DNA of 64,000 bases, taken from the NCBI RefSeq assembly GCF_013403565.1, contig NZ_CP058627.1:2542001-2606000 (forward strand). The letters run 5' to 3'. The position numbers were made by a program, and so were the translations under genes. This document shows, piece by piece, positions 7,325 through 23,689 of this stretch; within the stretch, counting starts at the first letter, position 1, and every line of letters starts with the position of its first letter. The stretch is from Chitinibacter bivalviorum (GTDB lineage Bacteria; Pseudomonadota; Gammaproteobacteria; Burkholderiales; Chitinibacteraceae). The notes under the pieces were generated by a model, which was given only the letters and a program-made list of their open reading frames with translations, was not told the origin of the DNA and searched no databases.

Positions 7325-9553
7325 TCATTTCTCGGCAGGGCTGCTGACCCGCTCTGGCGCGCACAGCGGTAAAGTCAGCGTAAATTCAGACCCCCGCCCG
7401 ACCTGACTCTGCACTTCGATACGTCCGCCCAAGACCGAGTGGACGATGTTGTAGACAATATTGAGCCCCAAGCCTGATCCACCCTGACCCAATTTGGTGG
7501 TAAAAAACGGCTCAAAGATATGATCCAGATGCTCGGGGCGGATGCCTACACCATTGTCACTGACTATAAGCCTTAGCGTCTGCTCATCGATTAAACGCGC
7601 AGTAATCATCACCAAGCCCGCGTTTTTTTCGGCAAACGCATGTGTTTCAGCATTGGCAATCAAGTTATTTAACACCTGCACCAAGGCGCCGGGAAAGCTA
7701 TCGAGTTTCAATCCTTGCGGGATATCCGATTGCAAGCGATTAGCCCCATACAACACGCCCATGGTTTGCATGACTTGCAACACCAATTCAGCCAGATCAA
7801 ACTCGCGGCGCAGATCGCTGGTTTGATCGACCGCGACCTGCTTAAAGCTGCTGACCAATTGAGCCGCCTGCTCAAGATTGCGCATCAAAATCTGCAAGCC
7901 TTGCTCGGTGACATTCACATAATCGGCCAACACGGTTTTGCGTAGCGTCTGGGCGGTAATTTGCTCAGCCAATTCGCGGTTTTTCTCCTGCAAGGTTGAG
8001 CCCATCGTCACGCTCACGCCAATAGGCGTATTGAGCTCATGCGCCACCCCTGCCACCAAAGAGCCCAAGGCGGCCATTTTTTCAGACTCGACCAGCATTT
8101 TTTGCGTGGTTTTCAACTGCATAATGGTTTGTTGCAAAACATCATTTGCTTCAACCAGCTCGCGGGTGCGTTGGGCGACGGTTTGCTCCAGATGCTCGGA
8201 ATGCCCTTCCACCTCAGTTAAATACGTAGCCCGTTCTTGTGCAGTTTCAGCGACTTGGCTAAAGGATGGCTGCCAAGCTTTGGGCACTTTTGGCGTTTTT
8301 GCCTGCGGGTCGCCCTGCAAACGGTGCAGAAAATCGACCAGACGCAGTGCGGGTAAAGCAAAGAAGTAGGAAATCGCCCAAGCTGCCGCGATCAGCAACA
8401 TCAGCAAACCCAGCAACACAAAAGGCGTCCCCGCCACTTGCTTCGCTTTAGCCTGCTCAAGCTCCAGCTCGGAAAAGTACACCAGCAAATGCCACTGACT
8501 GCCTTGCAGTGGCAAGACCAGCCAATGCCATTGCCCATTGGTTTGTAGCGATTTTTTCTTCGCCAGCATACTGGCCAACGGGATTTGCGTCAGTTGCGCG
8601 GGCAGTACATTACTGCTTTTCAGGATATCCTTACTTTCGATCACCTGCCCCGCATCGTCGGCCAACACATGCCCGAGCGAATCAACAACCAAAGCATGGC
8701 CAAGGTAATTCATATCCACCTTCAGCGTTTCGGCAAACATTCGCAGCGTAACATCTGTTCCCAGCACCCCGACGAATTCATCCTGCACATATTGTGGGCG
8801 CAATAAACTCACCATTGCGCCTTTGCCACCCGCATCGTAATAGGGTGTCGTCCAGCGATTTTCGCGCTGCGGATTTCGATTGGGCGACATCATTTGCACT
8901 GGCCGTGTACCGCCCGCATCAAAGACTACTTTCAACATGGCATCGACCGATTGCGTGCCCGTCGCTTGTTGCAGCTCTTTTTCGGCAATAAACGGGTAAA
9001 TGCTGGAGAAATCTTCACGAGGCGAATAGAAATACGACCATTGGAAATAAGGGTGAGCCTGATGAGCGGCATGCATCGCAGGAAACAGCGCCATAGCGGC
9101 GGCGATTTCTTTCCCCAGATGAGGCTGCGTCAGTGCTGATGAGGCGACAAACAACTCACCAAAACGCTCGCGCCACCATGGATCAAGTTGCGAGCCCAGC
9201 AATCCCCCTGAGCCAGTCCGGCGCACGCCATACTGCGCTAGATGTTTCCACGTGCCCTCATCCAAGCCCAATTCCGGTCGCATCATGGTGTCGCTCAATT
9301 GCAAACTAAGGCGTTGTAAATGACTGGTCGCCACATTAATGACTTGTTCAAACGCCAATTGTTGCTGCAGCGCATGCGACTCGACCGATGCGAGTAAACG
9401 CGACTCCTCGACCGCCTCTACATGGCTTTTATACATCCACAATGCGGCCAACACGGGCACCACGACCGCAACCAGAAATAACAGAAAATGCCGCCGCAAA
9501 CGGCGTAATTGCAGCTTGGTATTTTGCGTTGTATTGCCATCGATCCAGTCCAT
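7325..9553 (-). CDS. membrane sensor histidine kinase with double-cache-like sensor
   Basis: 742 aa. One membrane segment at about residues 22-45 and another at about 375-397 enclose a roughly 330-residue periplasmic domain with cache-like features (FQWSYFYSPREDFSSIYPF, PYYDAGGKGAMVSLLRPQY, VGVLGTDVTLRMF). A coiled coil rich in E/Q/R leads to the H-box GVAHELNTPIG (about residue 500), then the N-box (NNLIANAETHAF), DNGVGI and GGSGLGLNIVYNIV. The kinase core is of the HELNTPIG type seen in orphan kinases. No response regulator lies next to it, so its partner is elsewhere. AGGAGA precedes the ATG. The cache ligand is unknown; small organic acids and amino acids are common for this fold. Confidence 0.85.
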   Translation of the reverse strand: MDWIDGNTTQNTKLQLRRLRRHFLLFLVAVVVPVLAALWMYKSHVEAVEESRLLASVESHALQQQLAFEQVINVATSHLQRLSLQLSDTMMRPELGLDEGTWKHLAQYGVRRTGSGGLLGSQLDPWWRERFGELFVASSALTQPHLGKEIAAAMALFPAMHAAHQAHPYFQWSYFYSPREDFSSIYPFIAEKELQQATGTQSVDAMLKVVFDAGGTRPVQMMSPNRNPQRENRWTTPYYDAGGKGAMVSLLRPQYVQDEFVGVLGTDVTLRMFAETLKVDMNYLGHALVVDSLGHVLADDAGQVIESKDILKSSNVLPAQLTQIPLASMLAKKKSLQTNGQWHWLVLPLQGSQWHLLVYFSELELEQAKAKQVAGTPFVLLGLLMLLIAAAWAISYFFALPALRLVDFLHRLQGDPQAKTPKVPKAWQPSFSQVAETAQERATYLTEVEGHSEHLEQTVAQRTRELVEANDVLQQTIMQLKTTQKMLVESEKMAALGSLVAGVAHELNTPIGVSVTMGSTLQEKNRELAEQITAQTLRKTVLADYVNVTEQGLQILMRNLEQAAQLVSSFKQVAVDQTSDLRREFDLAELVLQVMQTMGVLYGANRLQSDIPQGLKLDSFPGALVQVLNNLIANAETHAFAEKNAGLVMITARLIDEQTLRLIVSDNGVGIRPEHLDHIFEPFFTTKLGQGGSGLGLNIVYNIVHSVLGGRIEVQSQVGRGSEFTLTLPLCAPERVSSPAEK

Positions 9554-9637
9554 TCAGATTCTCCTGAACCCAACATTCCCTAGCAATATAGCTGCCGCAA
9601 TCCACTTTCACATCAGAGACTTAAATTCAAATGGCAA

Positions 9638-9665
9638 TAAAAAACCCCGGCACGCGGTCGGGGTT
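9638..9665 (-). terminator. terminator of argH
   Basis: On the minus strand AACCCCG / CGGGGTT with a nine-base loop, followed by a run of T. It begins 23 bases after the argH stop codon. Confidence 0.8.
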
Positions 9666-9687
9666 GTTGGCGGGTGACGAGTGATAC

Positions 9688-11085
9688 TTACCCGCCAATG
9701 CGCTCACGCCATTTCGCCACTTGCACCAGCACTTGGAAAGGTGCTGTACCACCAATGTGATTGCGGGCGTCGAGCGAGCCTTGCAGCGTCAACACCGATT
9801 GCACGTCATCTTCGATCAATGATGAGAATGATTTGAGCTCAACCAGCGTTAAATCAGCCAGATCTTTTTTCTTGCTTTCCGCATAACGCACGGCCAAAGC
9901 CACGGCTTCGTGCGCATCGCGGAATGGCAGGCCACGTTTCACCAAATAATCGGCCAAGTCAGTCGCAGTGGCAAAACCTTGCTTGGCGGCGCGCTCCATC
10001 GCCTCTGGCTTGACGGTAATACCGCGCATCATGTCGGCGTAGATACGCAGCGTATCGGTCAAGGTATCAACGGTGTCAAATAGGCCTTCTTTATCTTCCT
10101 GATTGTCTTTGTTGTAGGCCAGCGGCTGGCCCTTCATCAGCGTGAGCAAAGCCACCAGATGGCCATTCACGCGACCGGTTTTACCGCGCACCAATTCTGG
10201 CACGTCTGGGTTTTTCTTTTGCGGCATGATGGAAGAGCCGGTACAGAAACGATCGGCAATATCAATAAAGCCGTAACGTGGACTCATCCATAGGATCAGC
10301 TCTTCTGACAAACGCGACAAATGCGTCATGATCAGCGAGCCAGCAGCAGTAAATTCAATCGCGAAGTCGCGATCAGACACTGCATCGAGCGAGTTTTCGC
10401 AAATCGCTTCAAAACCAAGCAATTTGGCAGTGATGGTGCGATCAATCGGGAAAGTCGTCCCCGCCAGCGCTGCCGAGCCCAAAGGCATGCGGTTCACCCG
10501 TTTGCGGGTATCGGCCAAACGCTCGGCATCACGGCCCAACATTTCGACGTAGGCCAGCATATGGTGGCCAAAGGTCACTGGCTGCGCCACTTGCAAATGC
10601 GTAAAGCCGGGCATCACAGTGCTGGCATTTTTTTCAGCCAAATCTACCAGTGAATGCTGCAAATCGCGCACCAAACCAAGCAAGACATCAATCGCGCCCC
10701 GCAAATACAGGCGAATATCAGTTGCCACTTGGTCATTGCGTGAACGGCCGGTGTGCAGACGTTTGCCCGCATCGCCGATTTTATCGGTCAGGCGACGTTC
10801 GATGTTCATGTGTACGTCTTCGAGATCCAGACTCCACTCGAAACGACCCGCGCGAATATCATCGAGAATGTCAGCCATGCCGCCTTGGATGGCGCGCAAG
10901 TCTTCATCCGACAAGACGCCCACTTGGTTCAGCATGCCGGCGTGCGCCAGCGAGCCCTGAATGTCTACTTCCGCCATGCGGTTATCAAAAAACACCGAAG
11001 CGGTATAACGTTTAACCAGCTCGGAAACTGGTTCATTAAAACGGCCCGACCAAGCTTTATTGCTTGGTGTTGCGGAATCAGACAT
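9688..11085 (-). CDS. argH: argininosuccinate lyase
   Basis: 465 aa, the normal family length. It splits argininosuccinate into arginine and fumarate, the last step of arginine synthesis, as a cytosolic homotetramer. The fumarase-superfamily signature [12 protein letters not shown] (catalytic Ser loop) is intact, as are [12 protein letters not shown] and the HTHLQ-type segment ([11 protein letters not shown]). The ATG at 11085 ([16 protein letters not shown]) matches the usual N-terminus; an in-frame upstream ATG at 11121 would add 12 unlikely residues. Monocistronic, with its own terminator. Confidence 0.96.
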
Positions 11086-13664: not shown

Positions 13665-13706
13665 ACCAGAGATGGTACTACGAGAGATGTGCGATAGAAA
13701 CGAAAA

Positions 13707-13736
13707 AAGGGTTCCAGCTAAAAAGCTGGAACCCTT
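13707..13736 (-). terminator. original tRNA-Thr terminator, now cut off from its gene
   Basis: Perfect 13-bp stem AAGGGTTCCAGCT / AGCTGGAACCCTT with a four-base loop, followed on the minus strand by six T. It stands just downstream of the tRNA-Thr 3' fragment, so it must have ended the tRNA transcript before the element inserted. Confidence 0.8.
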
Positions 13737-13739
13737 ATA

Positions 13740-13790
13740 TTCTTGGTGCCGACGGCAGGAATCGAACTCGCGACCCCCTGATTACAAGTC
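13740..13790 (-). repeat. attachment-site duplication, left (attL-type)
   Basis: 51 bp identical to 18587-18637. It covers the tRNA-Thr 3' part from the anticodon loop through CCA and five to seven bases beyond. Confidence 0.9.
13744..13790 (-). pseudogene. tRNA-Thr 3' fragment (displaced host copy)
   Basis: Anticodon loop TGT, variable loop, T arm (GGTTCGA-type: GAGTTCGATTC), acceptor 3' strand and CCA, without D arm or 5' acceptor strand. This is the original 3' end of the host tRNA gene, replaced in the functional gene by the element's identical copy. Confidence 0.9.
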
Positions 13791-13886
13791 CAAAATCCAG
13801 ACCTGAAATCACGCGACAAAACCAATAAATTCAACGGTTTGCCATACCCTGCTTTACCTCATCTTACCCTAATTTCACCAAATTGC

Positions 13887-13906
13887 TGCAGCAAAAATGC
13901 AGCAAA
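13887..13906 (+). promoter_or_regulatory. putative integrase arm-type site, left
   Basis: Direct repeat TGCAGCAAA-AA-TGCAGCAAA, 97 bp inside the left attachment core. It matches 18515-18534 in 19 of 20 positions and in the same orientation. Arm-type role is inferred from position near both cores. Confidence 0.5.
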
Positions 13907-13967
13907 GAAATATTGGCCAAACTTGGGGTAACAGCAAGGAACATAGCGCTATACTCTAGGCAGTCAT

Positions 13968-14276
13968 GTGACTGCAAACATGACTTATCCAGATATGGAC
14001 CGCCTCATCGACATCAAAGAGCTGAGCGAAACAATCAGCTTGGCAGAGCAGACTATCTACAACAGATTCAACAAGGGTGGCGATTTACCGCCAGCAATTA
14101 AATTGGGACGCAGTTTGCGCTGGCGTGAAAGCGACGTTGCGGCCTGGATAGCCAGTAAACAGCCGGCAATAGAACCAAAGCCACTTCACACAGCTCCACC
14201 GAAAAGGCGGCGGGGCCGTCCTTCTAAACTTTCGCAAGTGCCGTACCAGCAACACAAAGACTCTGAGTTGCTCTGA
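13968..14276 (+). CDS. AlpA-like helix-turn-helix regulator/excisionase with C-terminal AT-hook
   Basis: 102 aa from the GTG at 13968 (weak TAGG site); an ATG four codons later (13980) is an alternative. It has the AlpA/excisionase winged-helix pattern: DRLIDIKELSETISLAEQTIYNRFNKG, then LPPAIKLGRSLRWRESDVAAWIASK. After residue 70 comes a basic tail KRRRGRPSK, an AT-hook-like motif that binds AT-rich minor groove and is not part of ordinary AlpA. AlpA proteins activate integrase or act as excision factors in satellites and islands. First gene at the left end of the element. Confidence 0.8.
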   Translation: MTANMTYPDMDRLIDIKELSETISLAEQTIYNRFNKGGDLPPAIKLGRSLRWRESDVAAWIASKQPAIEPKPLHTAPPKRRRGRPSKLSQVPYQQHKDSELL

Positions 14277-14486
14277 CAGCATATGTGAAAAGCCGCAGCC
14301 AGGGAGTGCCGCCGAAGGTTAGAGCACCGCTCCCCCTATCCAAAAAATACATACTTTTAGGGATTGGTTATCAGCGAAGGCTTTACCCGACCCTAGCTGT
14401 GTAACACCCTACAAATTGCAGGTGTGACTGAAAGGTCCCCGCCACGCTTTAGACGCAAAGCTGAAAAACAGCGAGAGAAGCCACGT

Positions 14487-15392
14487 TTAGTATTGGTTAC
14501 TTATGCGTTTAAGTAGGCGGGCTGTTTCAATAGAAATCAGTTTTGGATAAATAATGACAGTCCTTTCCCTATCCCCTTCAAACAATGAGTTCAAATAATA
14601 TTCATTTATTAATATATTGTGCTCTTCACTTAGTTCATTATACGAGACATTTCTTATAAAATCTTGCTCGCCATTTCCGAAACTCCCAAAAAAATGAGAA
14701 TCTATTCTTGAAAGCCATTTATCGGAGGACTGTCTATTTCCGTCAAAAAGGCAGTCAGTATACTCCCCGTACAGCATATTCAATGTATTAATATATTGAG
14801 ATGCCTGCATAGGCTTTCCTTTGCAAAATAGAGCAATTGACTCTTGCAAATAATATTTTTCGATGTGCACTGATACCGATGCTGACCTATCACCTTCAAA
14901 AAGTGCATTATTTAGTTGAATTGATTTGCTATTTACCTGATGAACTAAAGAGTTGTAATGACTATTACCTATCTGTAGCTTCAGCGACTCCTCTTTTGCA
15001 ATCTGTTCTGCTTCATTTATTAGCAAATTTGCAAGTTTATCTAATTCATTTCTTACATACGCAGCTTCATCAGTCACCCTTATTAAACTCTCAAGCCACA
15101 GACCAACAAGCAGTAGAGAAAAACAGCTAATCTGGTCAAAATTTCTATGTTTTTTTGACTCGAGATAAAAGCCATTAGCCGCCTCAATAAAACCTTCCCT
15201 TCCCCAATTCCTTATTTTACCCTCTAAATCAATTCTCATAGTTACATAATTAGCAACTATCTTTGAGAGCATATCTTCTGGAATTTTAGATAGTACATCT
15301 TTCGATTCTTTGTATTGATTGAGTAGTCTGTTTCCGCTAGACACTTCATCAACAGCAAACGCCGCCTTTTTAATCCCATCAAAAATACCCAT
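14487..15392 (-). CDS. unknown 301-aa cargo protein, AT-rich, with three LFEGDR-like repeats
   Basis: 301 aa, start MGIFDGIKKAAFAVDEVSSG. Visibly lower GC than the rest of the window, consistent with recent transfer. No signal peptide; one hydrophobic stretch (ISCFSLLLVGLWLESLI, about 88-104) may be a buried helix. The motif LFEGDR / LFDGNR / LFEGDR recurs at residues 164-169, 215-220 and 270-275, spaced 51 and 55, each preceded by a Tyr/Leu/Asn-rich helix (YNSLVHQ..., INTLNMLYGEYTD, LINEYYLNS). That suggests three related helical modules. I recognise no family. As the only real cargo of the element it is a candidate for a defence, interference or fitness function, but nothing in the sequence proves that. 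Confidence 0.75.
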   Translation of the reverse strand: MGIFDGIKKAAFAVDEVSSGNRLLNQYKESKDVLSKIPEDMLSKIVANYVTMRIDLEGKIRNWGREGFIEAANGFYLESKKHRNFDQISCFSLLLVGLWLESLIRVTDEAAYVRNELDKLANLLINEAEQIAKEESLKLQIGNSHYNSLVHQVNSKSIQLNNALFEGDRSASVSVHIEKYYLQESIALFCKGKPMQASQYINTLNMLYGEYTDCLFDGNRQSSDKWLSRIDSHFFGSFGNGEQDFIRNVSYNELSEEHNILINEYYLNSLFEGDRERTVIIYPKLISIETARLLKRISNQY

Positions 15393-15441
15393 TTTGGTAC
15401 TCGCTATAGTTGCTGTTCCAGCTTAACAAATTTACGTTGCC

Positions 15442-15567
15442 ATGAATGGCCAGAAAATCGTGCTGATAAACAAGAAAAATATAAAAGATAACCCTGTTTG
15501 CGGCCTAAGCATCCAGCTTCTTTTTTTCGCAATGTTTCTGCTGTTAAATATTTTCATGGTTTTATAA
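15442..15567 (+). CDS. possible 41-aa membrane peptide
   Basis: ATG start, 41 codons. A basic N-terminal half (NGQKIVLINKKNIKDN) is followed by an almost wholly hydrophobic C-terminal helix (about residues 22-41, with CGLSIQLLFFAMFLLLN). Divergent from the 301-aa gene. There is no convincing ribosome site. It could be a small membrane protein or chance in AT-rich sequence. Confidence 0.25.
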   Translation: MNGQKIVLINKKNIKDNPVCGLSIQLLFFAMFLLLNIFMVL

Positions 15568-15973
15568 AAACCAACTAAAAGATATATGGCAATAACTATT
15601 TCCATGGTTATCCTGTTTACTGAACAAAGATAGTTTGATGCAAGAGCTCACGAAGCGGTTTCAGATTACACATTTTAAGAAAACCAACCTACATCTTAGA
15701 ATAGCAACCTTTCGAACATCTTTGATTGGTATTCATTGGGTAAGCCAACCATCTTAGCGCTTAGTTCTACAACTAACCGACACCTTATTATCCCCGCTCA
15801 AATAAGCTGACGCAAAACTTAGTCGGTCCATGTGGCGATAGAAGCAAATCTATTAGTTATCGCCAAGTACGCACGTTGTTGCTTGCCGTAGGTCGATGCC
15901 AGCCGAAGATAAAACAAACATCACCAAGCCTGCATACATGACAAAACAGCGTCGCGAGGATAGGCAGTTAACA

Positions 15974-16386
15974 CTCCGAAGGAGCGCGCAGGGCGTTCAG
16001 CCCGTAGCAGCCGGCCACGCCCCAGCGGGGACGGTGTGGGGGAGCCGCCAAGGGACAAAAGCAGCGTCCAGCTGCTTTTGAGTCCACCCCAGTGGACGAC
16101 CGTTGGTGGGGGCGGAGCCATCCCCCCGACCAAGGTCGGGAAACCGCGTTGCGCGGGCGTTGCAGGGCCCCGGGCAGTTGCGCAGCAAATGGCAGGGTGA
16201 GCAACGAGTCCGACAGGACCACGACCAGCGGGAGTGCCGCAGCAAGGCGGTTTCCCGAACTTGTGAGGGGGGACCGGTGAGGCTGCCGCCCTAGCGGCAG
16301 AATTTTGGGTAGGGCGTCCAGCCCGTTAGCCAAAATGTCCTCATAAGCAAGGGGATTTATCCCCGCGCAGCAGGCCGCAGGCCTGC
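15974..16386. other. GC-rich hairpin array: candidate transfer/replication origin or structured RNA
   Basis: At least nine perfect or near-perfect hairpins in about 410 bp. Arms: 15974-77/81-84; 15991-94/16000-03; 16020-23/27-30; 16057-65/71-79 (9 bp); 16082-87/92-97; 16125-31/34-40 (7 bp); 16283-89/94-300 (7 bp); 16312-15/21-24; 16351-56/59-64; 16370-76/80-86 (7 bp). Three of them share the apical sequence GC-GTYCA-GC. The block lies just upstream of the winged-helix/nuclease-like gene. Such arrays occur at single-strand or transfer origins and in large structured RNAs; which applies here is open. Confidence 0.55.
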
Positions 16387-16418
16387 GAAGTGAAAGGTCG
16401 GAACGCTTTCGGGGGCTA

Positions 16419-16462
16419 GATGTTTTTGATGTTTGCACACTGCAAACATCGGCACAAACATC
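16419..16462. promoter_or_regulatory. four-half-site operator upstream of the winged-helix gene
   Basis: GATGTTT at 16419-16425 and 16428-16434, AAACATC at 16444-16450 and 16456-16462. The inner pair extends to a perfect 10-bp inverted repeat GATGTTTGCA / TGCAAACATC around CAC. The nested symmetry suggests a dimer-of-dimers repressor site, perhaps for the element's own regulator, 57 bp before the start codon at 16519. Confidence 0.6.
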
Positions 16463-16518
16463 GAATCATGCTAACCCTCCTGAGCTATACGACGTATCAC
16501 TCCCAGCGGAAAATCACT

Positions 16519-17331
16519 ATGGCAATCAACAAACAGCATCAAGGTGAAATCAATCGCCTTCGCGTATTACTTTATGTTTCGAAAGTGGGCTATGCGAGTC
16601 TCAAGCAAATTGCACGCGCTATCTGGCAACGCACAGATGCCAGTGCTTTAGTAATGACGGGCCGGACACTTAAATGGCTAACGGAAGAAAAATACATCGT
16701 CACTCGTCGCGACACGATTAAGTCAGAGCTGCTGGTGACGCTAACAAAAAAAGCTGTTAGATGGCTGACCGAGCGTGACTTCACGCTTCCCGATCATTGG
16801 AAGCACGCTCGGGATTGGCTTCGCAATGCGTACCCTCATCGAACCGCGTGCAATAGCGTGCATGCCTGCTTTTACACAGGTAACTATGACAGTCCCGGAG
16901 TTTGGAGTGAGCTAGAAATCGGTGCACGCGCCTCCCCTATTTTTCAGCAAACATACGAAAAACAGGAAAACGCCTTTGTCCTCAAAGAAGTTCACTGCAA
17001 GATTCCAGATGTCATCGCAGAATCAACGACAGGATTCGAATGGATTGAAGTCGAGAATTGCAGTCGCAGCGAAGCAGACTTCGAAAAACTCATTCTGGCC
17101 ATGCGAGCAATGCGATTTGCAAAAGATAGGCAAATTTCAAACGTACATTGCATTATCGCCAGTACCGCAGCCGAACGATTTAGCACACGCCTAAAGGCCT
17201 ATCTAGTGGATGGGTTGGGCGCGTTTAGTCCAGAACAGCAACAGCTAAATCAGCAATTACTCAAGGAGCAATTTATTAAGATTTCACGGCTCAATCACAC
17301 CGACATAAGCCTCGAAGCACTGCCATTTTAA
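16519..17331 (+). CDS. winged-helix protein with PD-(D/E)XK-like segment (replication-relaxation-like)
   Basis: 270 aa from the ATG at 16519, preceded by GGAAAA; two earlier in-frame ATGs (16420, 16468) fall in the operator region and lack ribosome sites. Residues 8-85 look like a winged helix (INRLRVLLYVSKVGYASLKQIARAIW ... TGRTLKWLTEEKYIVTRRD). The second half contains CKIPDVIAE and, after it, FEWIEVENCSRSEADFEKLI, resembling the PD...ExE nuclease-like segment of replication-relaxation proteins found next to transfer genes of mobilisable elements. That family assignment is tentative. It follows the hairpin block and a strong operator, and converges with the integrase at a bidirectional terminator. 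Confidence 0.65.
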   Translation: MAINKQHQGEINRLRVLLYVSKVGYASLKQIARAIWQRTDASALVMTGRTLKWLTEEKYIVTRRDTIKSELLVTLTKKAVRWLTERDFTLPDHWKHARDWLRNAYPHRTACNSVHACFYTGNYDSPGVWSELEIGARASPIFQQTYEKQENAFVLKEVHCKIPDVIAESTTGFEWIEVENCSRSEADFEKLILAMRAMRFAKDRQISNVHCIIASTAAERFSTRLKAYLVDGLGAFSPEQQQLNQQLLKEQFIKISRLNHTDISLEALPF

Positions 17332-17344
17332 GAACTACCAACAT

Positions 17345-17370
17345 AAAACCCCAGTTGTGACTGGGGTTTT
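17345..17370. terminator. bidirectional terminator between the winged-helix gene and integrase
   Basis: Perfect 11-bp stem AAAACCCCAGT / ACTGGGGTTTT with a TGTG loop, lying between two convergent stop codons. Confidence 0.9.
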
Positions 17371-17388
17371 AACGACATCAGCGATGTC

Positions 17389-18387
17389 TTAATGGGCACG
17401 AACTGCTGCAACAAGTTCAGCATGCGTTGGATTGTAGTAGCGCATGGACATCTGCAGCGTTTTCCAACCCATTACCTTTGCTAACGTCGGTGCTTCCATT
17501 TTTGGGGCTAGCCTTGAAGCAGCTTCGTGACGCAGGTCATGAAAACACAAGCCAGAGATGTTGGCTTTCTTACACGCGAGACGAAATGCTTTGCTTAAGC
17601 CCCGAGTGTCATGAAACGAGTTTACTCGCTCGTTGAGGCTGGCTGGCTCAGGCAGACTCCAGAGAATCTCTTCCGCCGCTTTTGTCAGTGGCACCACTCG
17701 CTTGCAGCCATTTTTAGTTACCCCTAAGCGAATGATTTCAGCATCAAAATCGACCTGGTGCCACTTCAAACTGGCAATTTCACCGGCCCGCATGCCGGTT
17801 TCAATCGCGAGGCGAATCGCAACGACAAGCCCCCTGTTACCGCTCACGCACAATTTAGCGGCAGCAATGAGACGGTCTTCTTCATCGCCCACTAAACGAC
17901 GGTCGCGACCTTCCGGTAACTTTGGCTTACGAATGCCTTCAATCGGATTTTGAACTGGGATGCTCCACTCGGTTTTAGCGCAGTTAAACAGATGTGAAAA
18001 CAGTGCCAGTTCAAGACGAACTGTATTTGCACCGACTTCTGCCAAGCGCTCATCACGATAGCGTGCAAAATCAACATTGCGCAGACTCGCTAAACCGCGC
18101 AAAGCCAAGGGGTGCTTTTGCAAGCGGGCAATCATCAAAAGCTCATTGGCCGCACTCTTTTTACTGGGGGAGATTTCTTTACCGTAGCGGGTCAATGCCT
18201 GACCCAGCGTTGTCGTCTCAGCTTCTCGCCGGTCAACGAAAATGCCACGAATCATTTCAGACTCAACGACACTCGCCCAACCCTCAGCTTCGGCGCGCGT
18301 TTCAAACGTCGCAGTCTGACTGGGATAGCCCACTCGACGCACAATGACTTGATATTGGTAGGGTCCACGTTTTTGGATGGTTGCCAT
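17389..18387 (-). CDS. int: tyrosine-type site-specific integrase
   Basis: 332 aa. N-terminal arm-binding segment (MATIQKRGPYQYQVIVRR, residues 1-55), core-binding SAM-like domain (about 60-150) and catalytic domain with Arg200 (TGMRAGE), His283-x2-Arg286 (HDLRHEA), Trp308 in the usual second-His position (MGWKT) and nucleophile Tyr317 (SMRYYNP). All catalytic residues are present, so it should be active. It is oriented toward the interior, with its start 200 bp from the tRNA-Thr attachment core, as usual for tRNA-targeting islands. It catalyses integration and, with an excision factor such as the AlpA-like protein, excision. Confidence 0.93.
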   Translation of the reverse strand: MATIQKRGPYQYQVIVRRVGYPSQTATFETRAEAEGWASVVESEMIRGIFVDRREAETTTLGQALTRYGKEISPSKKSAANELLMIARLQKHPLALRGLASLRNVDFARYRDERLAEVGANTVRLELALFSHLFNCAKTEWSIPVQNPIEGIRKPKLPEGRDRRLVGDEEDRLIAAAKLCVSGNRGLVVAIRLAIETGMRAGEIASLKWHQVDFDAEIIRLGVTKNGCKRVVPLTKAAEEILWSLPEPASLNERVNSFHDTRGLSKAFRLACKKANISGLCFHDLRHEAASRLAPKMEAPTLAKVMGWKTLQMSMRYYNPTHAELVAAVRAH

Positions 18388-18514
18388 GATTACTTGCTCC
18401 TAGGATAGGTCGCGGCACTAAAAATGTGCCTTGGAGCAGAGGTATAGCGTTGACGCATTGGCATGATTGCATCTCGATGCAAAATAAATAGACATCGAGC
18501 CATCACTATCTGAG

Positions 18515-18534
18515 TGCAGCAAAACTGCAGCAAA
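18515..18534 (+). promoter_or_regulatory. putative integrase arm-type site, right
   Basis: Direct repeat TGCAGCAAA-AC-TGCAGCAAA, 53 bp inside the right attachment core. It matches the left site at 13887-13906. Confidence 0.5.
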
Positions 18535-18552
18535 TAATGATTTAAAATGCGA

Positions 18553-18582
18553 AAGGGTCCAGCAATTGCTTGCTGAACCCTT
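18553..18582 (-). terminator. element-borne terminator behind tRNA-Thr
   Basis: Thirteen-pair stem (one G-T pair) AAGGGTTCAGCAA / TTGCTGGACCCTT on the minus strand, with a short T run. It mirrors the sequence and position of the host terminator at 13707-13736, so the element appears to bring its own replacement terminator. Confidence 0.6.
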
Positions 18583-18586
18583 GATT

Positions 18587-18637
18587 TTCTTGGTGCCGAC
18601 GGCAGGAATCGAACTCGCGACCCCCTGATTACAAGTC
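18587..18637 (-). repeat. attachment-site duplication, right (attR-type)
   Basis: 51 bp identical to 13740-13790, forming the 3' part of the intact tRNA-Thr gene. Confidence 0.9.
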
Positions 18638-18666
18638 AGGTGCTCTACCAACTGAGCTACATCGGC
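18591..18666 (-). tRNA. tRNA-Thr (anticodon TGT)
   Basis: 76 nt including encoded CCA. The acceptor stem GCCGATG / CGTCGGC (one T-G pair), D arm AGCTCAGTTGGTAGAGC, anticodon stem-loop CCTGACTTGTAATCAGG (anticodon at 18631-18633) and T arm with GTTCGATTC are all present. It is the target gene of the integrated element. Confidence 0.95.
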
Positions 18667-18724
18667 TAAGAGCTGCGCATTCTACCAGAGCTTTTAATTT
18701 GCGCAAGCCCCTAAACGCATTTTT

Positions 18725-19825
18725 TTAATTTTTTACGAGTACCAGGTGATTATCCCAGCGCGGCGTGCCCTGCATGGGGCACATTGTGAGGGTATCGCCC
18801 CCCATTTGATAATGCGCCAACACACCAGTTTCGCTGCTGATCCACGCCTGCTTACCATCGCTGGCGATCCCTGCTGGGCGGAGCAGATTGAGGCTAGCCA
18901 ACGGTGTACCGTCGCTTTGCCAGCGCGCCAGCTGATTGCCGCGCAAAGCGCTGATCAAAAATTGCGAGCCCAATTGCGCATCGTGCACGGCGGCAATACT
19001 GGCACCATACCCTTGCAGCGCAGGAGCTTGCGCGGCGAGCTGTAATTGATCGGCATTGGGTTTGAGCAGGGCCAGCAAGGGGGCGTTGAGATGCTGCTCA
19101 GCCTTGGCGTATTCGGCCTGCAGCGCGATGCCGATCGTGCCATCGTGACTGCGCGCCAGGTGCCGAATGCTGAGCGCTTTGTCTTCCAATACGTATTCGG
19201 CCAATTTCTTCCCGCTGGGCCATTCCAGCAGCACCAGCGAGGGATTCATTTGCCCGCGATTGATTTTGGCGCGACCCGTTTCGGGCAAGGTCAAAACCCC
19301 ACCATTAGCAATGGCCAGTATCTTGCCAGGAACTAGCCAGATCATTTCATGCGGACCAATACCCCAAGTGGGTAATTCGGCAATACGCTTGAGATTGGCC
19401 ACATCATAGATGCCGAGCAAGCCTTGGCTGCTGTCGTCGTTGTTTTCGGTCGTGATTAGCGTTTTGCCATCGGGCGTTAATATCGCGTGGCCGAAGTAAT
19501 GGCGATCGAATTCGGCCTCGCGCAATTGCACCACCTCACCACGTTGCCAATTGATTTTCGCCAGCCACGAGCCCAGACGGCGGCTCACGACGATGGCTTC
19601 GCCACTCGCAGGCAAGGCAACAATGCCATGCCCACGCCCTGGCAAAGCAATCGGCTGATACGTCTCGCCCGAGATCATGCCCGCCGACATCACCTCGTCC
19701 GACCAACTGGCGCTAAGCAAAGTCGGCACAGCCTGATCAGATGTAGTCCCCGCCTTGCCCGCCACCGCATGCCGCGGCCACGTCGCCAAGGCACTGAGCT
19801 GCAGAAAATGACGCCGATTGATCAT
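18725..19825 (-). CDS. DUF1513 beta-propeller-like protein with Tat-like signal
   Basis: 366 aa from the ATG overlapping the upstream imelysin stop by one base (TGATG). The N-terminus INRRHFLQLSALATWP resembles a twin-arginine (RRxFL) export signal. The rest is repeating beta structure with GRGHGIVALP, GHAILTPDGKTLITTEN, GIGPHEMIW and NPSLVLLEWPSGK, the conserved blocks of DUF1513 proteins (propeller fold, predicted periplasmic). It is the last gene of the imelysin / di-heme oxidoreductase / imelysin operon, a common companion set in proteobacteria thought to act in iron acquisition or redox. Specific function unknown. Confidence 0.85.
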   Translation of the reverse strand: MINRRHFLQLSALATWPRHAVAGKAGTTSDQAVPTLLSASWSDEVMSAGMISGETYQPIALPGRGHGIVALPASGEAIVVSRRLGSWLAKINWQRGEVVQLREAEFDRHYFGHAILTPDGKTLITTENNDDSSQGLLGIYDVANLKRIAELPTWGIGPHEMIWLVPGKILAIANGGVLTLPETGRAKINRGQMNPSLVLLEWPSGKKLAEYVLEDKALSIRHLARSHDGTIGIALQAEYAKAEQHLNAPLLALLKPNADQLQLAAQAPALQGYGASIAAVHDAQLGSQFLISALRGNQLARWQSDGTPLASLNLLRPAGIASDGKQAWISSETGVLAHYQMGGDTLTMCPMQGTPRWDNHLVLVKN

Positions 19826-20826
19826 CAGTCGCCGTCGCCTTCGGTAAAGCCCAAGGTCAGATCCCATTGCTCGGCGATGTCGTTTTGCAAGCGATGCTTC
19901 ACTTGCGTGAGCGCCTTGCTGCAATCTTGTCGCGCCTTGGCGCTACTTTGGCTCAGATCGTCGGGCAAAAGCTGGCAAGTCTTTTGCGCCGCCAGCATGT
20001 CGGCTTTCATCGCGGCGGCCAGCTCGGCGTGACCGTCTTTGCTCAACCATTGATTTAAGCCGCCCATCGCGCGGCTAAAACCGGCGTATTGCGCCAGAAT
20101 CTGCGCCTTGCTGCTGCCACTGCGCCACTCGATATATTGCTCGGGCTTGATCCCCGTGCCCGTTGGAATCCGTTTGATCAGGCTAGTCAGGCTGGCGATC
20201 ATCAAGTTCACATGTTCAGAGAACAAGTTCTGGCGGAAAAACGGGTTTTCAGCGCCCAACTCGGTGTTATACACCCGCCAACCTTCGTCCAGCGCGTGTG
20301 TTTCCTGCGCGACCCATTGACTGATTTTGACCAGATAATCGCAACGCGGCGGCGCTTTCAAGCTTGCCAACACACCCGCAGGCTGCGCATCGCCCCAGAG
20401 TAAATACTCGATCGTGGGCAAGCCACGCGCGGCGACATTGCCCTCGCCCCCTGCGATCGCGGCCTCGACATCCGCCACACGCACAGGGCGAAAATCAATA
20501 TTGCGCCCCAAACGTGCCAGCACCATCGGCCCTGCGGGTGCGCCATCCATCGCGCGCCATGCCTGACTCGCACTCAGCCACGCTGCACGCGCATTTTTCA
20601 ACTCGGCAGCATCGAGTTTTTGGCACAGGTTTTTACTCGCCAGCGCCAACTCGTCTGCAGCGTGATTCAGTGCGGTATAACGGCTCAGATAACCGTCTTT
20701 AAGCCAAGATTGCGCCCAAGCCACATCGGGCACGGGCGCTTTGCTGATCTCGACCGGGTCTGCGGCCAAAGCCGGCACAGCGAGCAAAGCCGAGAAAACG
20801 GCACTTAATGCAAATTGACGCATCAT
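19825..20826 (-). CDS. imelysin-family (M75-like) periplasmic protein, divergent active motif
   Basis: 333 aa with signal peptide (FALSAVFSALLAVPALAAD). Imelysin-like helical repeat protein: NAADELALASKNLCQK, ARAAWLSASQAWRAMDGAP, RGLPTIEYLLWGD. In the family motif GxHxxE the His is replaced here (GLPTIE), unlike the first imelysin of the operon, which has GWHAIE. Binding or catalysis that uses that His is therefore probably altered. It starts eight bases after the di-heme protein stop. Confidence 0.85.
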   Translation of the reverse strand: MMRQFALSAVFSALLAVPALAADPVEISKAPVPDVAWAQSWLKDGYLSRYTALNHAADELALASKNLCQKLDAAELKNARAAWLSASQAWRAMDGAPAGPMVLARLGRNIDFRPVRVADVEAAIAGGEGNVAARGLPTIEYLLWGDAQPAGVLASLKAPPRCDYLVKISQWVAQETHALDEGWRVYNTELGAENPFFRQNLFSEHVNLMIASLTSLIKRIPTGTGIKPEQYIEWRSGSSKAQILAQYAGFSRAMGGLNQWLSKDGHAELAAAMKADMLAAQKTCQLLPDDLSQSSAKARQDCSKALTQVKHRLQNDIAEQWDLTLGFTEGDGD

Positions 20827-20833
20827 TTCTGCC

Positions 20834-22231
20834 TTACAGGGATTTCAAAAATTGTTCCAGATTCGCGCGATCGCTGGCGTTGAGCTTGAGCACCGCCTGC
20901 TTGCTCGCCTCAGCCTCGCCGCCATGCCACAACACTGCCTCCATCAGGCTACGCGCGCGGCCATCGTGCAGATAGCGGCTGTGGCCATTGACCGTCGGCA
21001 CCAGCCCCAAGCCCCATAGCGGCGGCGTTTTCCACTGGCGACCATTGGCGCGACCATCTGGGCGACCGTCGGCCAGACCTTCGCCCATATCATGCAGCAG
21101 CAAATCGGTATAAGGATAAATGGTTTGATTGGCCAATTGCGGCACAGGTGCAAATTCGCCGGTTTTATAGCTCGGCGTGTGGCAACTGACGCAATTGGCG
21201 TCTTTAAATAGCTGCTTACCGCGCAGTACATTGGCCGAGTCGGCATCGCGGCGGGTCGGCACGGCCAGCGTACGGGAATAGAAAATCACCTGCTCCAGAT
21301 TTTTATCGGAGATTTCCGGCTTGCCGCCCGACGGAGCTTTTAAGCAGTCTTTCTGCTTGGCGGTGCATTCCTCATGCGGATTTACCCGCGAGGTAATCCC
21401 CATATCGCCCAGAAACGCCCCCGCGCTTTGATGCGCAATTGTGGCCACATTGGCCTTCCAGCCAAAGCGCCCGAGCATGTCCTTGCCGGCAAAGGCATCG
21501 GGCACATAATTGGGCGTGCCTGCGATACCACGCCCTTCAGCGCGCTGCCGCTCGGCATTCGCCAGAATATCCCTCTCGGGTATTGCCTCTAAAAGCCCTA
21601 AGCCAATCATCTGTGGCGCAATACGGGGGGAGAGCATAATGTCTTTATGCAGCGGCCCATAACCTAAATGATCGAGTTTGTACGTTGGCGACTGCAAACT
21701 ATAGGGCGTGCCATCGGCAAATTGGCCTTTGATTTCACGATATTGAATTTGCACCTGACCTTCGGGCTTTACATGCGGAATCGCGCGATTATTAAACTGC
21801 CCGCCGTAGACTGGGTCGGGCTTCTGACCGGGAATAGACAGTCGAATCAACAAAGCCATCGGCTGCTCTTGCTGAATGCCATTGGCAAAATCGGGCGGCG
21901 CGCCACGCCCGTCCAGCGTATGGCAAGCGCCACAGGATTGCGCAATAAAATGCGGCCCAAGGCCATCGCGCGCGGTCGTCGATGACGGCGCTTCCACCCA
22001 AGGCTTGGTGAAGAAGGCATTACCGATTTCAAATTGCGTCACTTCATCGTCGGTTAGTGCTGGCATGGGCAGCGAAAAAGCATTTTTACCGTGATCATCA
22101 GTCGTACCCGCTTCGCCGCCGGGTAGTAATTCAGCTTGCTCAAGCAGGGCTAATACCGCCGTACTTTCATAGGCCAGCACGCCACCCGCGATCAAGCAGG
22201 CCAGCAGAGGGAGGGAAAATCGGTGCAGCAT
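20834..22231 (-). CDS. di-heme oxidoreductase family (DUF1111) c-type cytochrome
   Basis: 465 aa. The ATG at 22231 has AAAGAG six bases upstream; the ATG at 22237 overlaps that site. Signal peptide/anchor HRFSLPLLACLIAGGVLAY. Two c-type heme motifs: SCGACHTLDG (about residue 108) and NCVSCHTPSY (about residue 344), with HDMGEGLADGRPDG and WKTPPLWGLG typical of the DUF1111 (thiol oxidoreductase-like) family. Periplasmic electron-transfer protein of an imelysin operon. It may oxidise or reduce iron species, but that is inference from context. Confidence 0.88.
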   Translation of the reverse strand: MLHRFSLPLLACLIAGGVLAYESTAVLALLEQAELLPGGEAGTTDDHGKNAFSLPMPALTDDEVTQFEIGNAFFTKPWVEAPSSTTARDGLGPHFIAQSCGACHTLDGRGAPPDFANGIQQEQPMALLIRLSIPGQKPDPVYGGQFNNRAIPHVKPEGQVQIQYREIKGQFADGTPYSLQSPTYKLDHLGYGPLHKDIMLSPRIAPQMIGLGLLEAIPERDILANAERQRAEGRGIAGTPNYVPDAFAGKDMLGRFGWKANVATIAHQSAGAFLGDMGITSRVNPHEECTAKQKDCLKAPSGGKPEISDKNLEQVIFYSRTLAVPTRRDADSANVLRGKQLFKDANCVSCHTPSYKTGEFAPVPQLANQTIYPYTDLLLHDMGEGLADGRPDGRANGRQWKTPPLWGLGLVPTVNGHSRYLHDGRARSLMEAVLWHGGEAEASKQAVLKLNASDRANLEQFLKSL

Positions 22232-22274
22232 ATTCATCTCTTTAGTTATTGCTATTCTTATTGGCGTAAATGCC

Positions 22275-22302
22275 AAACCCCCAGCGCAGAGACTGGGGTT
22301 TT
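22275..22302 (-). terminator. partial terminator/attenuator inside the imelysin operon
   Basis: Stem AAAACCCCAG / CTGGGGGTTT on the minus strand with one bulge and only a short T run, between the first imelysin gene and the cytochrome gene. It probably lets the first gene be expressed at a higher level than the rest. Confidence 0.5.
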
Positions 22303-22322
22303 GCTCACACACATTTAGACGC

Positions 22323-23465
22323 TTACACGCCGGTATTCAGGCGTTTGATGCCCAGCTCTTTGGCTGCGTTCACCAGATCTTTCGATTGTGCTTTCAGTGA
22401 CTCAACAGTGGCCTGCACGCGTTTGCGGCCGGGCGCGTCTTTTTTGCCGACGATTTCCCGATCAAATGGCGCTTGGATGGCTTCGGCCAGCTTGACGCTG
22501 TTATCGATATCGCTGCTGGTTTGCTGCGCGATTTCGGCGTTTTTCTGTGCGACCAATTGTTTCAGGCTCGCGCCTTCAAGCACTTCACCAGAACGGCGCA
22601 CATAACGACCTTCCCACGCGTTTTGGATGCCTTTGGCATCGGTCACAATATCGCGGTGCGTGTTATCACTAAAGCACGAATGCTCGTCTTCCTGATTTTG
22701 CGTATCGAGCGCCACTTCCATGCGCTGACCCGCCAATTCGCCTCGGCTCAAAGTGCCCATACCGGTAAAGATTTTCTTAATACTATCGAGGTCACCCTTC
22801 ACAAATTTGGCGCGATAGTTGTTACCGCTGGCTTGCCATTGCTGCTCCACGCGCGCCAAATCATCGACCAACATTTGCGTTACCAGCTTCAAATATTGCG
22901 CGCGGCGCTCGGCATTCGGTGCCGTGGTGTAATCGGTATAAGGGCGCTGACCGGCGCTGTCTTTGCTCAGATCCTGACCCCAGAGTAAAAATTCGATCGC
23001 GTGCCAGCCCGTCGCGATGTTTTGCTCGCCACCGCGTTCATTCAAGCCACGCAATTGCTTTTCGGTAATGGCGACTTTGGGGTTATTAATAATGCCGCCT
23101 TTGGGCTTGCCTTTCACGTAGTCGATATACACTTCGTCCAGTGGCCATGCGTTGATAAAGCCTTCCAGACCTGCATCGTCGTCAATCGGGCCGGCATAGA
23201 AACGAAACGCTTCGGTCTGGCCGTACCATTCGCGTGCTTCAATCCACGCAGCTTGCGCCGCCTTCAGGCTCTCAGTAGTCGGTTTGGCAAGGAATGCATC
23301 GATCTTGCTTTGCATATCACGCGCGCTGGCGCTGCTGTCTTGATAATTGGCCAATACTACATTGGCGTATTGATCCAATACCTGCTGTTTGCTCACTTCG
23401 GCGGCGTTGACCGCGCCATTCCATAGCATTCCCGCGCAGAGCAGCGCCAAGCTTAGCTTTTTCAT
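22323..23465 (-). CDS. imelysin-family periplasmic protein (canonical motif)
   Basis: 380 aa with signal peptide (KKLSLALLCAGMLWNGAVNAAE). It carries the family motif GWHAIEFLLWGQD (His-x2-Glu) and the conserved FYAGPIDDDAGLEGFINAWPLDEVYIDYV and DEHSCFSDNTHRDI blocks. Relatives include Pseudomonas IcmP and the iron-regulated IrpA-like proteins. First gene of a four-gene operon on this strand and followed by an attenuator-like hairpin. A weak Fur-like site lies upstream. Predicted role: periplasmic iron binding or uptake. Confidence 0.9.
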   Translation of the reverse strand: MKKLSLALLCAGMLWNGAVNAAEVSKQQVLDQYANVVLANYQDSSASARDMQSKIDAFLAKPTTESLKAAQAAWIEAREWYGQTEAFRFYAGPIDDDAGLEGFINAWPLDEVYIDYVKGKPKGGIINNPKVAITEKQLRGLNERGGEQNIATGWHAIEFLLWGQDLSKDSAGQRPYTDYTTAPNAERRAQYLKLVTQMLVDDLARVEQQWQASGNNYRAKFVKGDLDSIKKIFTGMGTLSRGELAGQRMEVALDTQNQEDEHSCFSDNTHRDIVTDAKGIQNAWEGRYVRRSGEVLEGASLKQLVAQKNAEIAQQTSSDIDNSVKLAEAIQAPFDREIVGKKDAPGRKRVQATVESLKAQSKDLVNAAKELGIKRLNTGV

Positions 23466-23520
23466 ACCCCAGACCTTCGCATCGATTCAATAGGGTGAAT
23501 CTTAATCCGCGACCCGACCA

Positions 23521-23539
23521 AATGCAATCAATTCTCAAT
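23521..23539 (-). promoter_or_regulatory. weak Fur-box-like site before the imelysin operon
   Basis: AATGCAATCAATTCTCAAT matches an AATGATAATCATTCTCATT-type Fur box in 13 of 19 positions and lies 56-74 bp upstream of the first imelysin ATG. The match is modest; position and gene content support it. Confidence 0.35.
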
Positions 23540-23689
23540 ACCGTTATCATGTAAGTCCGTTTACTTCACAAATAATCGCAGCATAATTGCAAAGTCCTGC
23601 CAACTGGACTCGTTCAACTGGACAAGCCCTATCAGCGGGGTAGAATCACGCCTCAAAGTAGTTATCTAAGTGCGCGCACCGGAGAAAGT

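Follow-up and report, generated by a model that had tools for sequence, protein, structure and literature searches.

A MobC-like relaxase candidate and a conserved folded block in a small, probably mobilizable, integrative element at tRNA-Thr of Chitinibacter bivalviorum

How could an integrative element of only 4.9 kb move between cells? The question is raised by an insertion in the 3' end of a tRNA-Thr gene of Chitinibacter bivalviorum, located in a window of 64,000 nucleotides (genome G000, contig C1, positions 2542001–2606000; coordinates below are those of the window unless a locus is named). An initial annotation of this DNA had described a very small, possibly complete element, of a layout known from phage satellites and from integrative mobilisable elements, with a nuclease-like gene, a hairpin block and one unfamiliar cargo gene. 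The most probable explanation is a minimal integrative mobilizable element (iMOB) with a tyrosine integrase, a MOBC-related relaxase and a folded block, which would need a helper for transfer. Elements of this kind (integrative mobilizable elements, IMEs) are known; the MOBC-related relaxase together with the conserved folded block is the new aspect.

The element is bordered by an exact 51-bp direct repeat, which corresponds to the 3' part of the tRNA gene plus a few flanking bases:

13740..13790, no strand: attachment (att) repeat, distal copy, 51 bp (exact repeat)
18587..18637, no strand: att repeat, tRNA-proximal copy, 51 bp (exact repeat)
18591..18666, minus strand: tRNA-Thr(TGT), the integration site (ARAGORN)

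The duplication, which had been noted at the outset, was confirmed and is unique: no third copy was found on either strand of the window when up to 8 substitutions were allowed. Both empty and filled tRNA-Thr sites were found in relatives. In G003, a genome of the same genus, the site is empty (locus L028), with 92 of 92 bp identical to 13699–13790 and the sequence continuing into the remaining part of the tRNA; the repeat is thus not a product of chance. A search with the whole 5 kb matched only the element ends in the five other genomes of the genus (13700–13759, and stretches within 18512–18700), so the interior is absent there. The second tRNA-Thr of the same genome (L033) is uninterrupted and matches 13695–13790 by 98%. 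An integrase of its own, att sites and an empty site elsewhere, the features that define an integrative element, are all present.

The frames that accompany the integration functions are:

13968..14276, plus strand: AlpA/HTH_17-type protein (PF12728, 33.1 bits; PF05930, 25.2 bits; both above cut-off)
14487..15392, minus strand: cargo ORFan frame, 301 aa (only itself found in the protein search; no Pfam match above cut-off)
15432..15605, minus strand: small frame, 57 aa (open frame only)
17389..18387, minus strand: tyrosine integrase, 332 aa, open frame (PF00589, 85.1 bits)

The intact integrase and the AlpA-like regulator are as the initial annotation had them, and the AlpA/HTH_17 protein is likely an excisionase or regulator. 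The cargo frame is AT-rich (GC 0.351 versus 0.511 for the whole window), and its protein had no relative besides itself among 5.8 billion proteins at E≤0.001, in a search that relies on shared five-residue words. The claim of a single unfamiliar cargo gene holds for this ORFan, but the 57-aa frame may belong to the cargo as well.

Genome contigs (one genome per species, 84,980 species) were scanned with the relaxase alignment, which yielded at least nine loci; two exact peptides served as patterns and the count is a lower bound. The only near relative was found in a metagenome-assembled genome (MAG) labelled uncultured Deefgea (L034), where the element also resides in tRNA-Thr. Its DNA is ∼90% identical to the window over 13740–14393 and 15779–18666, and the backbone of tRNA-Thr site, AlpA, block, relaxase and integrase is kept. 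The stretch between is unrelated, so the interval from AlpA to the block reads as an exchangeable cargo slot, filled by the ORFan in the window copy. In L034 it holds an EamA-like gene (25.5 bits, under the cut-off of 28.2) and a 139-aa frame without family. The relaxase frame of L034 stops 25 codons early (245 versus 270 residues from the same start). The description as a very small integrative element is thus borne out by the 4.9-kb size, the empty and filled sites and the exchanged cargo.

The candidate transfer functions of the element lie in the nuclease-like gene and the DNA upstream of it:

15972..16371, plus strand: conserved hairpin block, ∼400 nt (fold z −5.84; covariation; strand bias)
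16419..16462, no strand: motifs GATGTTT and AAACATC, two copies each, upstream of the relaxase-like gene (read from sequence)
16519..17331, plus strand: MobC-like (MOBC-related) relaxase candidate, 270 aa (winged helix, PD-(D/E)XK-type motif, profile match to MobC)

The nuclease-like gene was recovered as the open reading frame 16420–17331, with a conserved start at 16519. From this start the protein has an N-terminal winged helix and, after it, catalytic residues of the PD-(D/E)XK type; the fold match of the C-terminal part was weak. The window protein shares KxPD and then ExE, at the same spacing, with the MOBC relaxase MobC of CloDF13, to which it is related by a profile match with an E-value of 1.5e-8. 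A winged helix at the N-terminus (for pAD1 TraX by the description in PMC12857230) and an active site of the restriction-nuclease type are common to the window protein and the MOBC relaxases CloDF13 MobC and TraX. The window protein did not match PF13814 (Replic_Relax; curated cut-off not reached) or NCBIfam NF041423 (MobC_subf). Of four relatives scored with PF13814, P0033 and P0036 were above the cut-off, P0006 was below and P0003 had no match; none of the four matched NF041423. The gene at 16519–17331 is likely the transfer gene of the element and encodes a candidate MOBC-related relaxase. The earlier statement that full transfer genes are lacking was right, yet the nuclease-like gene is itself related to MOBC relaxases. 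The GATGTTT and AAACATC copies may form a binding or operator site. No plasmid relatives of relaxase, block or cargo were found at the limits used.

The hairpin block proved to be real, and its pairing is, beyond what the initial annotation had reported, conserved across genera. Folded as RNA, the block has an energy of −214 kcal/mol (z = −5.84); the complement reaches −196.9 kcal/mol (z = −4.47), and in neither case was any of 100 shuffled sequences as good. Conservation was assessed from ten block sequences of 367–410 nt, from the window, L034, a second copy in the same genome (L032), Massilia (L035), an Oxalicibacterium MAG (L036), Janthinobacterium (L037–L039) and an Alcaligenaceae MAG (L040 and L041). 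The remaining locus of the nine-locus scan, L042, was left out because it starts inside the gene, without upstream DNA. RNAalifold placed 78 pairs, of which 47 contained at least one double change that kept the pair. Pairing was found in 91.8% of 770 cells versus 74.5% in shuffles, and the covariation score was 0.461 versus 0.154, a value reached by 0 of 500 shuffles; the consensus structure was taken from this very alignment, a bias in its favour, and the shuffle tests are inflated by relatedness among the rows. Sliding the partners by one to three columns lowered the pairing to 38.6–49.7%, and double changes remained in 46 of the 78 pairs when only five dissimilar rows were used. On the gene-sense strand G-U cells outnumbered A-C cells (45 versus 10 in ten rows; 19 versus 5 in the five dissimilar rows), and this strand folded better than its complement in all ten sequences.

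The block lies upstream of a relaxase-like gene in several Burkholderiales, directly so in most loci. In the Janthinobacterium locus L039 the block (7588–7976) and the MobC-like gene (9995–10798) are separated by ∼2 kb, including a frame at 9151–9864, and the adjacency is thus not strict. The 4227 covariance models of Rfam gave no match in the window block at E≤1, and at gathering scores only tRNAs were detected in nine related loci. No published description of such a block was found in the literature on noncoding RNA beside relaxases, on MOBC relaxases or on such elements, a survey that left out most subscription journals.

A hairpin with the loop C-GUYCA-G recurs throughout these loci. Counting those with at least three further pairs (G-T allowed), 32 were found in 16 loci (267,793 bases), where shuffling in 50-base chunks gave ∼2 on each strand, summed over the loci; some of the loci are related to each other, so the counts lack full independence. 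Every one of the 32 is on the same strand as the relaxase gene and 30 lie within blocks, the other two being at L032 12819 (inside the gene) and L066 2597 (outside the block). The same rule finds no hairpin in L035 or L069. Two more features were seen by eye to recur in the blocks of the window and L034–L041: hairpins of a second class, whose loops are rich in C (CCCA, CCTA), and a GGGGGAGCCG-like motif.

More distant relatives were sought in 399 genomes of the order, of which six, G000 included, contain the protein family at E≤0.001. The other five genomes hold six distant genes, all six with a hairpin-rich stretch upstream (by eye) and five with C-GUYCA-G hairpins. A covariance model of the last 98 positions of the block, R1, which was built without the distant loci, matched directly upstream of the distant gene in L064 (37.4 bits, E 1.3e-8). 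Six other genomes gave R1 matches of 26.6–30.0 bits without an adjacent MobC-like gene, and this level was therefore taken as chance; L077, one such locus, has only a 23-residue MobC-like match (E 0.001), and its sequence looks by eye like uvrA. The matches in L066 (19.9 bits) and L065 (18.6 bits) are in the right place but below the chance level, so that their weight is that of position only. Above 30 bits and with strict filters, R1 occurred at three places in the 399 genomes of the order, namely two in G000 and a third in G049, and in 369 genomes of the class only at the same two places of G000; each of these places lies upstream of a MobC-like gene. No R1 match was obtained in CloDF13 and the MobC plasmid stretch at E≤1. 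The exact block motif was absent from the viral contigs. With one mismatch allowed, the sole hit outside this genome among the 399 (G025, L054) was rejected, as it reads by eye as ribosomal-protein DNA.

Overall, the block is most likely a structured RNA or a folded single-stranded DNA that acts in mobilization, and the pairing preserved across distant relatives points to a role of the folded molecule itself in the movement of such elements. We propose that the integrase, with AlpA as the likely excisionase or regulator, would recombine the 51-bp att core within the tRNA-Thr 3' end, and that the relaxase would nick the excised circle at an origin of transfer (oriT) in or beside 15972–16519, possibly near 16400–16519, where the GATGTTT and AAACATC copies lie. 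A type IV secretion system of a helper would then export one strand. The block would work as a folded single strand of the relaxase sense, most likely as an element-encoded RNA with a part in relaxosome assembly or in its control; a folded transferred DNA strand is less likely, RNA being favoured because of the G-U excess. More tentatively, and with some doubt on our part, the block may represent a new class of structured RNA of ∼400 nt, with recurrent hairpins and an invariant C-GUYCA-G loop, that is a working relaxosome part of MOBC-like relaxases in integrative elements of Burkholderiales, which would amount to RNA-assisted conjugative mobilization.

In principle, the block could instead be an elaborate oriT or single-strand initiation site, without any RNA gene, whose transferred strand folds into a structure that the relaxase or the priming machinery of the recipient recognises. 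An oriT often lies directly upstream of the relaxase gene, as the block does in most loci, single-stranded DNA can form G-T wobble pairs as well, and the complement of the block folds well too. The G-U excess and the better folding of the sense strand, however, suit RNA at least equally, and in L039 the block is ∼2 kb from the gene; we consider this reading possible but rather unlikely. It is unlikely, too, that the winged-helix nuclease and the block are the replication initiator and origin of the excised circle rather than a relaxase with its RNA or oriT. The Pfam family is named Replication-relaxation and a GC-rich hairpin region would suit an origin, but the named relatives of the family are MOBC relaxases (compare PMC5357655), and we give the initiator reading little credence.

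The element as a whole might be a decayed remnant, now immobile, of which integrase, AlpA and att sites are left over. The genome-contig scan returned one near relative only, with a shortened relaxase frame, and no helper was seen in the genome; on the other hand, the named frames are open, the att sites are exact and the backbone was kept at ∼90% while the cargo was exchanged, which makes decay improbable. Phage satellites combine an integrase and AlpA with small size, as does this element. The five frames held no packaging, capsid or capsid-remodelling, primase, terminase or phage-interference family in Pfam or PHROGs, except for a weak PHROG match of AlpA to a terminase small subunit (E 0.0025), and the relaxase family had no relative in the viral contigs or the 50,697 phage records searched. 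Packaging by a helper phage is thus very improbable, and of the two possibilities raised at the outset the mobilisable element fits better.

For the iMOB the helper would have to be sought elsewhere. No mating-pair formation genes were found in the five frames scanned and no coupling protein was seen among them. The type IV secretion families PF02534, PF03135, PF11130 and PF12696 are absent from this genome, and the only TIGR03744 match was a fragment on contig C3 with 23.2 bits, well short of the cut-off; the helper would therefore come from outside or be of another type.

The layout has parallels among known systems. Two described IMEs resemble the window element as integrative elements with a MobC-superfamily relaxase, here a candidate, and without type IV secretion genes; they have serine integrases and a VirD4 coupling protein where the window element has a tyrosine integrase and no coupling protein was seen. 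Transfer of the mobilizable island SGI1 requires its own noncoding sgm-sRNA, encoded beside an atypical relaxase gene and oriT (PMC9299015). SGI1 resembles the window element in being a mobilizable island with an RNA or block beside the relaxase gene, the RNA of the window block being a prediction, and is a precedent for an island whose transfer depends on its own small RNA. Its relaxase candidate MpsA is tyrosine-recombinase-like, unlike that of the window, and the likeness of the RNAs is one of description, not of sequence. According to PMC12857230, a covalent DNA intermediate has never been observed for MOBC relaxases, and how they recruit, transfer and religate the DNA is an open question. 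A conserved folded partner beside a MOBC-like gene offers a concrete handle on this question. Block and gene together also mark small mobilizable islands that escape the standard relaxase models, and at 4.9 kb the system is small enough to be tested whole.

A second block with a MobC-like gene, a 57% identical family member, is present in this genome (L032 10540–13818, numbered identically on contig C1), adjoining a large serine recombinase, with five clustered tRNA genes close by. In 9 of 16 loci a relative of the window integrase or AlpA, or the serine recombinase, is present in the DNA covered (the L032 recombinase was itself a query). The families in ten neighbouring frames scanned include SIR2-like, KAP NTPase, type I restriction and PP2C.

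Three further features lie in or beside the element:

13707..13736, no strand: host tRNA-Thr terminator hairpin (terminator scan; adjoins the tRNA at the empty site L028)
17344..17371, no strand: inverted repeat of 12 bp, where the relaxase and integrase genes converge (repeat search)
18553..18582, no strand: replacement terminator-like hairpin beside the restored tRNA (by eye; common to the sister element L034)

The insertion displaced the host terminator hairpin to the far side of the element. The replacement hairpin may travel with the element; other tRNA-Thr genes of the genus have a similar sequence next to them too (94% over 18545–18685, G001 and G004). Near each end of the element lies one copy of an 86% direct repeat (13887–13914 and 18515–18542) with two TGCAGCAAA units, possibly integrase arm sites.

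The tRNA-Thr gene looks like a hot spot for several elements in the genus. In G001 and G005 (L010, L011, L019, L024) integrases related to that of the window (35% and 43%, over partial length) adjoin tRNA-Thr, and additional att-like copies are found in G001, ∼21 and ∼58 kb from the gene. In G002 (contig C1, ∼1506112 and ∼1556603; L029 9112–9172, L030 10604–10735) the distal terminator and the first part of att lie ∼50 kb from tRNA-Thr, which suggests a larger, different insertion at this site. On the other side of the tRNA (18733–23585), relatives have a homologue of window 23.6 kb only a few hundred bases or less from tRNA-Thr, against ∼4.9 kb here; this spacing difference suggests a further insertion or rearrangement. 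Elsewhere in the genome, a 30.7-kb contig (L076, G000:C3:12000–30683) carries a relaxase-like frame of 889 aa and partition-like genes, as well as genes that resemble, as judged by eye alone, those for tetracycline efflux and aminoglycoside phosphotransferase; it looks like a mobilizable resistance plasmid.

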